This document shows, one piece after another, positions 42,437 through 44,686 of a stretch of DNA of 64,000 nucleotides. Source of the stretch: Marinomonas primoryensis (GTDB taxonomy: Bacteria > Pseudomonadota > Gammaproteobacteria > Pseudomonadales > Marinomonadaceae); the NCBI RefSeq assembly GCF_013372285.1, contig NZ_CP054301.1, forward strand, positions 1,784,001-1,848,000. The letters run 5' to 3'. Position numbers and translations under genes: made by a program. The notes beneath the pieces are model-generated. The model saw only the letters and a list, made by a program, of their open reading frames with translations. It did no database searches and had not been told where the DNA came from. Every line of letters begins with the position of its first letter. The first letter of the stretch is position 1.

Positions 42437-44686
42437 ATGAGTTATCAAGTTTTAGCACGTAAATGGCGCCCACAAAATTTTCTTGAAATGGCTGGGCAAG
42501 ACCATGTACTCCAAGCGTTGGTCAATGCTTTGCGCCAACAGCGTTTACATCATGCCTATTTGTTTACCGGAACACGTGGTGTTGGTAAAACCACCATTGC
42601 CCGTATTTTTGCTAAATGCTTGAACTGTGAAACCAATGGAATCTCACCCGAACCTTGCGGTACATGCGACAGTTGCCGTGAGATTACGGAAGGTCGTTTT
42701 ATTGATCTTATCGAAGTTGATGCGGCCTCTCGTACTAAAGTAGAAGATACCCGTGAGTTATTAGAAAATGTGCAGTACGCGCCGACTCGTGGCCGCTTTA
42801 AAGTCTACCTGATAGACGAAGTGCACATGCTGTCCACTCACTCCTTCAATGCCTTATTAAAAACACTTGAAGAGCCGCCAGAACACGTTAAATTTTTATT
42901 GGCGACAACCGACCCGCAAAAACTCCCTGTCACTGTGTTATCCCGTTGTTTGCAATTCAATCTTAAAAACATGACACCACAGCGCGTGGTCGATTATTTG
43001 CAAACTGTGCTTAATGCAGAGAAGGTCAATTTTGATCAGCCCGCGCTATGGCAAATAGGTCAAGCGGCTAATGGCAGTATGCGTGATGCGTTGAGTTTGA
43101 CGGATCAGGCGATTGCATTTGGTAATGGCACTATTTCTGAATCTGGTGTGACGGCTATGTTGGGCCTGATTAACCAAGCCCAGGTGTTGGATTTATTGGA
43201 AGTGGTTGCCTCTAAAAATGCCGCACAAGTACTGTCTCTCATAGAACAACTTGCTGATTATCAACCTGATTTCACTGCGATTTGTGGCAGTTTATTGGAC
43301 ACCTTGCATCGCGTAGCGATAGAGCAACAGGTGCCGGGCGCTCTGGCTGATCAGCTTGGAGATTTGGCTAGAATTCAAACTATTGCTGCCAATGTAAGCT
43401 CTGAAGAAATACAAGTTATGTATCAGAGTTTGTTGATTGGCCGTCGTGATTTATACCTAGCGCATTCAGCCCGTGCTGGTTTTGAAATGCTGATGTTAAG
43501 GTTAATTGCCTTCCGTCCCACGCCACCTATGGTGATAAGCCATGGCGCACCGGCAGCAATCCAAACAGCGCCGGAAGTTGACGCCTCGCCGCAAGCCACA
43601 ACAGAAAAAAAAACACCCGACGATGAGTCAGTAGGCGTTGCCGTCGATGACCTTATAGAAACGCCATCGACATCCATAATGCCGGCGACACCGACAACAG
43701 TAATAGACAAGAAAGAAACGCTCGCGTCTGCTGTCGCGGAACATCCACCTTGGGAAGACGCACCAGAGGTTTCTCTTACTGAGGCGCCATCTTCTTTTGA
43801 GGCTGAGAGTATTGAACCGCTGGCGGCTGAGGTGAATGAGTCAATCATCCCAATCACGTCGGAGGATACTAAATTAGCTGAAGCCGTGCAGTCACAAGAA
43901 GCCGTGCCGTTAAAAGAAACAACACCGCTACAAGTGATAGAAGCATTAGAGCAAGTTTCACCGCTAACAGAAGAAAAATCGATTGCTAGTGAGCCAGAGC
44001 CGATTCTATCATCGGAGCAAAACAATAAGCCGTTCGTCGTCGCGGAAGCTGAGTATTTAGACGCGGCGACAGACGAGGATGATGAGGACGAAGAAGAAGC
44101 CGAAGAGCGAGAAATTGCAGATATTATTAATCCCTTTAATCCAGCAGCAGACTTAGTTGATGCATTAGGGGCGGAACCTATTGCGTCACCCGAGATCGAA
44201 GAAAACAAAGAGCCTGACACGCGGTTGTCAAAAGTCCCTGATACTATAGCGCAACCCGCATTAGCCATGCCGATGCCTGCGTTAAGTCACTATAATGAAT
44301 TGACCATGAAGTTGTGGTGGCTGGTGGCGCCGCGTTTATCTTTGACGGGATTGGTGCAGAATATTTTAATGAATTCCAGCTTAGTGGATGCCAGTGATCA
44401 AGGCATTCGCTTGGAAGTGCCTTTGGAATATGGGCACATGCTCAATCAAGTGCGCTACGAGCAAGTGCAAGGGGCACTAAGCGATTTCTTCGCTATGTCT
44501 GTGCCTTTGATCATAGATACGGTGGAAGACACCAGTGGTGTTACGGCAGAGGAATTTGCGGCGAGTAAACGCGCGGAAGCATTGCAGGTCGCCATCGAAC
44601 ATTTAAATTCACATCCAGTTGTGCAGGCGCTATCGGCTACGATGGGCGCACAGTTGGTTTACGATACAGTTAAAGTTAAAGCTTAA
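42437..44686 (+). CDS. dnaX: DNA polymerase III tau (and gamma) subunit
   Basis: A 749-aa clamp-loader subunit. Walker A is GTRGVGKTT (45-53), the zinc cysteines fall in CLNCE and PCGTCDSC, Walker B is LIDEVHMLS, and the sensor 1 region is LLATTDPQKLPVTVLSRC. Domain III ends near residue 370, followed by an acidic, low-complexity linker rich in Glu/Ala/Pro/Thr (about 375-600). The C-terminus is tau domain V (LWWLVAPRLSLTGLVQNIL ...), which contacts the polymerase. An A9 tract at codons 390-392 could produce a shorter gamma form (see separate entry). It starts a run with ybaB and recR 15 and 9 bp downstream. Confidence 0.95.
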   Translation: MSYQVLARKWRPQNFLEMAGQDHVLQALVNALRQQRLHHAYLFTGTRGVGKTTIARIFAKCLNCETNGISPEPCGTCDSCREITEGRFIDLIEVDAASRTKVEDTRELLENVQYAPTRGRFKVYLIDEVHMLSTHSFNALLKTLEEPPEHVKFLLATTDPQKLPVTVLSRCLQFNLKNMTPQRVVDYLQTVLNAEKVNFDQPALWQIGQAANGSMRDALSLTDQAIAFGNGTISESGVTAMLGLINQAQVLDLLEVVASKNAAQVLSLIEQLADYQPDFTAICGSLLDTLHRVAIEQQVPGALADQLGDLARIQTIAANVSSEEIQVMYQSLLIGRRDLYLAHSARAGFEMLMLRLIAFRPTPPMVISHGAPAAIQTAPEVDASPQATTEKKTPDDESVGVAVDDLIETPSTSIMPATPTTVIDKKETLASAVAEHPPWEDAPEVSLTEAPSSFEAESIEPLAAEVNESIIPITSEDTKLAEAVQSQEAVPLKETTPLQVIEALEQVSPLTEEKSIASEPEPILSSEQNNKPFVVAEAEYLDAATDEDDEDEEEAEEREIADIINPFNPAADLVDALGAEPIASPEIEENKEPDTRLSKVPDTIAQPALAMPMPALSHYNELTMKLWWLVAPRLSLTGLVQNILMNSSLVDASDQGIRLEVPLEYGHMLNQVRYEQVQGALSDFFAMSVPLIIDTVEDTSGVTAEEFAASKRAEALQVAIEHLNSHPVVQALSATMGAQLVYDTVKVKA
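43605..43613 (+). other. A9 slippage tract in dnaX
   Basis: GAA-AAA-AAA-ACA (codons from residue 390) contains nine consecutive A. A -1 shift, or one extra A in the mRNA, gives N-T-R-R and a TGA at 43624-43626, a product of 396 aa. Loss of one A gives a different frame that meets TAG within eight codons. Either way the product ends just after domain III, as expected for a gamma subunit. Confidence 0.6.

Follow-up and report, generated by a model that had tools for sequence, protein, structure and literature searches.

The closest described counterpart of the site analysed here is found in dnaX of Thermus thermophilus. According to excerpts of two papers, this gene carries nine A's on the sense strand within a single tau ORF, with stop codons near in both other frames, and gamma is made from mRNAs in which the number of A's is other than 9 or 9 + 3n (PMC1088944, PMC5009743). 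Runs of nine A's or T's are described as efficient slippage sites in vivo in the excerpt of PMC5009743, and in E. coli the run from Thermus dnaX causes shifts in either direction, as stated in an excerpt of a further study (PMC6260861). The Marinomonas dnaX gene analysed here likewise presents an A9 tract in a single tau ORF and near stops in both other frames; heterogeneity of the mRNA at the run and production of tau and gamma at about 1:1 are additional marks of the Thermus type. The two genera belong to different phyla.

E. coli dnaX provides a second point of reference. It shares with Marinomonas the gene itself, the linker region in which the site lies, the A-rich nature of this site and, as predicted for Marinomonas, a gamma that lacks the alpha-binding part. 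It differs in its heptamer, A_AAA_AAG, which is accompanied by a stable 3' fold and, at a distance of 10 bases on the 5' side, by AGGGAG, whereas the Marinomonas tract has A_AAA_AAA and neither helper. E. coli heptamers that lack a stimulator shift at no more than ten times a background of 0.055% in the excerpted part of PMC4066793, and hence at well under 1%. For the two-ORF dnaX genes of Chlorobium and others, which hold poly-A runs of 7-10 A, slippage has been proposed (PMC3711429, excerpt); tau requires the shift there, whereas it is the unshifted product in Marinomonas. Slippage leading to alternative products at about 15-55% is reported for tssM of Citrobacter rodentium and for mxiE and spa13 of Shigella (PMC4256274), the runs being of A or T (PMC6260861; both sources as excerpted). 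Slippage on A/T runs is also what we propose here, but these are secretion genes and do not encode a replicase. As far as the excerpt of PMC3290774 goes, most non-enteric bacteria lack frameshift signatures in dnaX. The importance of gamma outside enterics is an old question. Among the literature matches listed, no paper dealt with slippage in Marinomonas dnaX, and a literature search for Marinomonas together with transcriptional slippage gave none.

The window, a stretch of 64,000 nucleotides, comes from a Marinomonas genome of 4.07 Mb in one contig (G000 in the panel used below), whose nearest named relatives (L002-L034) are all Marinomonas. The following features of its dnaX locus are relevant here:

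42437..44686, + strand: dnaX, tau subunit of DNA polymerase III; a single 749-codon ORF with Pfam domains
43136..43513, + strand: domain III (PF12169, residues 234-359), the final folded part retained in the putative gamma; Pfam match, residues converted
43605..43613, + strand: A9 tract, GAA AAA AAA ACA, candidate RNA-polymerase slippage site; from sequence and conservation
43606..43612, + strand: A_AAA_AAA, phased as a slippery heptamer for a -1 ribosomal shift would be; phase counted from the ORF start at 42437
43624..43626, + strand: TGA closing the predicted A10 or -1 ribosomal-shift product (396 aa); from sequence
43632..43634, + strand: TAG closing the predicted A8 (398 aa) and A11 (399 aa) products; from sequence
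44315..44671, + strand: tau domain V (PF12170, residues 627-745), missing from gamma; Pfam match, residues converted

In the window, tau is not split over two frames in the DNA, and an A run of at least nine lies within its one ORF of 749 codons. The sequence-only reading had located this A9 within dnaX at 43605-43613, which the sequence bears out, and had assigned it to codons 390-392; the position is right, and the true span is codons 390-393, the run beginning with the second base of codon 390, covering codons 391 and 392 entirely and ending with the first base of codon 393. As that reading also held, the tract lies just past domain III, about 30 residues beyond the end of the Pfam match (residue 359) and well ahead of domain V (from residue 627), which makes the contact with the polymerase alpha subunit. 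With one extra A, or after a -1 shift, the predicted product is 396 aa long and ends at TGA 43624-43626. With one A fewer, translation is predicted to stop after 398 aa at TAG 43632-43634, seven codons past the tract, and two extra A's are predicted to give 399 aa. The predicted C-termini read EKKNTRR for A10 or a -1 ribosomal shift, EKKHPTMSQ for A8 and EKKKHPTMSQ for A11, of which the A8 and A11 forms could not arise by a -1 ribosomal shift. Both the claimed closure of the -1 frame at 43624-43626 after 396 aa and that of the +1 frame within eight codons agree with these products, and the computed masses (43.8-44.1 kDa for the short products versus 81.8 kDa for tau) come close to the forecast of about 43 and 80 kDa. 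The genes 3' of dnaX are, as we take it, similar to ybaB, recR and rnd; ybaB is found downstream of dnaX in E. coli as well.

Comparison of the dnaX loci of 48 Marinomonas genomes revealed exactly A9 in 31, A8 in one and no tract in 16, and a run longer than A9 in none of these 48 genes. The 33 named Marinomonas loci, which appear to overlap with the panel, include 20 with A9, one with A8 (L004), one with A7 (L010) and 11 with none; among the best 30 dnaX loci (L082-L111), A9 is present in 26. All 31 A9 genes spell the site as (G or C)AA AAA AAA ACN, in a single phase, and the linker around the tract is scrambled in sequence and length, the codon at which the tract lies ranging from 378 to 438. 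The base directly 3' of the run (43614 in the window) is C, within a Thr codon, in all 31 genes; ACN accounts for 401 of 924 A[CGT]N linker codons, so this constancy exceeds what codon use predicts. Slippage alone does not obviously call for a C after the tract. The A9 tract is not due to chance. Conservation in relatives had been named as a check, and loss of the tract in close relatives as a refutation, which holds in part: the exact A9 recurs in 31 of 48 genomes, and its run length appears to be kept by selection, though 16 genomes, some of them nested among carriers, have no tract. Because of these 16 and of five changes on the genus tree (see below), gamma made by slippage would seem to be dispensable in some lineages.

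Sites were ranked against the other in-frame positions of the same gene's linker for anti-Shine-Dalgarno pairing, 3' folding energy and the closeness of the following stops in the -1 and +1 frames, a low rank denoting a strong signal. E. coli dnaX, the positive control, ranked at 0.054 (Shine-Dalgarno), 0.12 (fold), 0.031 (-1 stop) and 0.51 (+1 stop), and the mean ranks of 20 non-Marinomonas A_AAA_AAG genes, taken from 47 loci (L035-L081) some of which are incomplete, were 0.048, 0.125, 0.146 and 0.544, respectively. The 31 A9 genes, window included, showed no signal for a Shine-Dalgarno sequence upstream of the tract (mean rank 0.479) and none above background for a stable 3' structure (0.497). 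At the tract, neither the window nor any of the 31 A9 genomes has an A_AAA_AAG heptamer; A_AAA_AAA is found instead in 31/31. A fold at 43613-43690 in the window was considered as a stimulator and rejected, given that its -20 kcal/mol corresponds to z = -1.22, that 23 of 200 shuffles equalled it and that the 31 genomes have no such signal in common.

The stop ranks of the 31 A9 genes are low in both frames (0.388 for -1 and 0.335 for +1), with KS p values of 5e-5 and 2e-5, respectively, that are not fully corrected for relatedness. Both other frames close soon after the run, on average within 7.84 codons and at most within 14.0, as compared with 20.9 in the null. None of 20,000 resampling draws was as low as 7.84, a figure likewise not fully corrected for relatedness, and early closure of both frames also holds when the set is thinned by hand to 24 or to 18 genomes.

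These findings bear on the model that gamma arises, as in E. coli, by ribosomal -1 frameshifting, here at the A_AAA_AAA of 43606-43612 and with the usual helpers absent. The heptamer is in phase and followed by a -1 stop within 7.4 codons in 31/31 A9 genomes, a near -1 stop being a feature of E. coli-type sites too, and the tRNA patterns described below, judged by eye, suggest a single kind of tRNA-Lys, which is the E. coli situation. We nevertheless regard this model as unlikely. Neither of the two stimulators leaves a signal in the 31 genes, the +1 frame is closed as well, for which a -1 shift has no need, and unstimulated E. coli heptamers work at the low level mentioned above (PMC4066793, excerpt). 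Moreover, in-phase A_AAA_AAA occurs in the 48 linkers 31 times within A9, once within A8 (G027) and once within A7 (G009), and an A precedes the heptamer in just 6 of the 59 A_AAA_AAG sites found in our survey of the order; the unit that is kept therefore appears to be nine long and not seven. Some ribosomal shifting may still take place, because the tract contains A_AAA_AAA in the ribosomal phase. RNA-polymerase slippage is the best reading of the site, ahead of ribosomal frameshifting. Since slippage on nine A's is efficient and unstimulated heptamers are weak, an argument carried across species from excerpted sources, the sequence should favour the polymerase over the ribosome by a wide margin. 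The sequence-only reading had judged tract length and stops to fit the slippage type, and the exact A9 in 31 of 48 genomes, the missing stimulators and the early closure of both frames speak in its favour.

In the excerpt of PMC5009743, the presence of two tRNA-Lys in Thermus is put forward as what may underlie slippage there. When the Marinomonas genomes were searched with tRNA patterns, the one for a UUU anticodon loop gave matches in 48/48. The corresponding CUU pattern gave them in 8/48 among the matches listed, and by eye only the two places in G045 are tRNA-like. In the window's genome, there are four UUU-type places, which have one tRNA-like 30-mer in common, and no CUU place. As opposed to the two tRNA-Lys of Thermus, these patterns, judged by eye, suggest one kind in Marinomonas genomes except G045, which also has A9. 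On these patterns, a second tRNA-Lys does not account for the tract here as it may in Thermus, because the window's genome carries A9 with UUU-type matches only and tRNA-like CUU places were seen in G045 alone.

A different explanation is that selection acts on the peptide EKKT and that A9 results incidentally from the codons used to spell it. EKKT or QKKT is indeed encoded in 31/31 A9 genomes, with Thr always in the next position. Between residues 356 and 600 of the 48 dnaX proteins, [EQ]KK occurs 35 times; Thr follows in 31 instances, all of which are encoded by A9, and the other four, which have no A9, are EKKV (twice), EKKE and EKKR (in the A8 genome). Lys is encoded by 81 AAA and 64 AAG codons in the linkers of the 31 A9 genes (56% AAA) and Glu by GAA in 61% of cases, so that spellings with G would be expected often, yet 0 of 31 [EQ]KKT peptides are spelled without A9. 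All-AAA usage was seen in 2 of 13 invariant Lys columns of these genes. Together with a control site in a response regulator gene, where QKK persists in 17/30 genomes but A9 in 4/30, these counts make selection on the peptide extremely unlikely.

That control site (L183, codon 22) and a second one in fmt (L160, codon 27) are sense A9 runs near the gene start in the window's genome which relatives seldom keep. For each, 47 or 48 genomes gave matches, of which the best 30 were compared; the fmt run was kept in 1/30, this being the window's genome itself, which is also among the 4/30 for the response regulator. Slippage at these two sites may be a cost. Avoidance of A runs was assessed against synonymous-codon shuffles in 40 stretches of this genome, 800 kb in all, which yielded 584 N-free ORFs with a length of 150 aa or more. 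Sense A runs of at least nine numbered 4 versus 20.3 +/- 3.3 expected, an approximately five-fold avoidance, and A8 was also below expectation (21 versus 38.5), whereas A5 to A7 exceeded it (A7, 149 versus 127). Runs of nine are therefore avoided in this genome, as has been reported for many bacteria (PMC1088944, excerpt). Nine of the first 30 A9 places in this genome (67 in total), dnaX included, fall within sense ORFs that are 120 aa or longer. A neutral homopolymer devoid of any role would be compatible with the 16 genomes that lack the tract and with the presence of A9 in other genes of this genome. We consider it very unlikely, however, given the avoidance of A9 in genes, the decay of the control sites, the constancy of A9 in length and phase across 31 genomes and the near stops in both frames.

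The A8 tract is located at codon 396 of dnaX in L085 (G027) and L004 (M. pontica LMG 22531), which we take as one assembly because their match tables are identical. The 0-frame ORF stops at codon 407 and the C-terminal part of tau goes on in another frame, a layout that resembles the two-ORF dnaX genes as excerpted from PMC3711429. Five other genes tested in 9 kb of L004 are intact, and the split of tau is either an assembly error or a real reversal. The A7 of L010 is doubtful and probably reflects an assembly error, because the gene upstream of dnaX, presumably a Rhodanese-like one, is likewise broken by a frameshift. Neither the A8 nor the A7 assembly is counted as evidence here. Although A8 in one named assembly and A7 in another could point to a replication-slippage switch, i.e., phase variation of tau, such a switch is exceedingly improbable: tau is expected to be essential, 31 of the 32 tract-bearing panel genomes are in frame, and the broken neighbour gene in L010 suggests an error.

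Taking these comparisons together, we propose, with a probability of roughly 0.8, that the A9 tract serves for programmed slippage during transcription. Judged from its sequence, this ordinary-looking run of A's very probably functions in recoding and would add a gammaproteobacterial member to the Thermus kind. RNA polymerase would realign on the nine template T's and thereby generate mRNAs whose run comprises 8, 9, 10, 11 or more A's. Those mRNAs that have 9 (or 9 + 3n) A's would be translated into tau, and all others would encounter a stop within 15 codons, giving rise to a gamma-like protein of 396-399 residues in the window that retains domains I-III and is devoid of the polymerase-binding part. 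The dnaX RNA would accordingly be heterogeneous at the tract, and gamma would be produced in useful amounts.

On a genus tree derived from the DNA of dnaX domains I-III, the A9 label needs five changes, a number that is forced by well supported branches. Most simply, this history comprises one gain and four losses, the latter on the branches of G021, of G011 with G022, of G007, G012, G026, G043 and G044, and of G017; more gains and fewer losses are possible. Earlier-branching genomes without A9 are G035, G003/G023/G042, G020/G009 and G016. At codon 428 of its dnaX, G020 (L123) has A_AAA_AAG preceded by AGGAG (pairing rank 0.005) at a distance of 10 bases, the same spacing as that of AGGGAG in E. 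coli; a -1 stop follows about six codons on, and there is no 3' fold (rank 0.569). Its sister G009 has A_AAA_AAA (A7) and no Shine-Dalgarno sequence. Within the genus, a ribosomal cassette of the kind common in the order may have given way to A9, which is a simple history because the early branch G020 has an E. coli-type site. Independent gain of A9 is possible as well because neither kind of A-run site was seen in the earliest branches of the genus.

The survey of the order covered 145 genomes that are at least 90% complete and were drawn evenly from a larger group; six were Marinomonas, four had no match, and dnaX could be read in 131 of the remaining 135. Among these 131 non-Marinomonas genes, 59 have A_AAA_AAG with a -1 stop within 10 codons, two have A_AAA_AAG with a far stop, two have A_AAA_AAA with a -1 stop within 10 codons, 14 have runs of A9 or A10 and 54 have no site of either kind; one or other site (59 A_AAA_AAG plus 14 poly-A) is thus present in 73/131. 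Linker runs of length 6 were found 69 times, of 7 ten times, of 8 three times, of 9 four times and of 10 ten times. The 14 genes with runs of at least nine compare with 4.0 +/- 1.7, and a maximum of 9, in 300 synonymous shuffles. Mean ranks of the 59 A_AAA_AAG genes were 0.142 (Shine-Dalgarno), 0.168 (fold), 0.184 (-1 stop, whose nearness is part of the definition of this group) and 0.527 (+1 stop). The 14 poly-A genes ranked at 0.435, 0.638, 0.284 and 0.149 in the same order, with KS p values of 0.0028 for the -1 stop and 5e-9 for the +1 stop, so that the ranking sets the two kinds of gene apart in this sample too.

The 14 poly-A genes (L305, L309, L312, L344, L349, L361, L375, L382, L383, L389, L393, L398, L413 and L416) are distributed over eight families, of which f12, f16, f35 and f41 also hold an A_AAA_AAG gene among those sampled. 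AAG ends the run in ten of them, which are possible hybrids because the E. coli heptamer sits at the run end; the run of L416 (codon 362) may be due to chance. Over the order, the poly-A label changes 15 times, five of these changes being forced by starred branches, on a rapidly built protein tree in which many branches are long. We lean towards the view that a short clamp-loader subunit is kept by two interchangeable devices and that lineages of the order repeatedly swapped the ribosomal cassette for a slippage tract, sometimes via a hybrid that, through a G after its nine or ten A's, unites the slippage run with A_AAA_AAG; Marinomonas would represent one such swap within a genus. The same output seems to be maintained while the mechanism moves from translation to transcription.

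The linker of the window's dnaX is also covered by a 281-aa antisense ORF on the minus strand (43423-44268). This ORF seems to be a side effect of linker composition, because the longest antisense open stretch ranges from 84 to 287 codons in the 48 dnaX genes of the genus.
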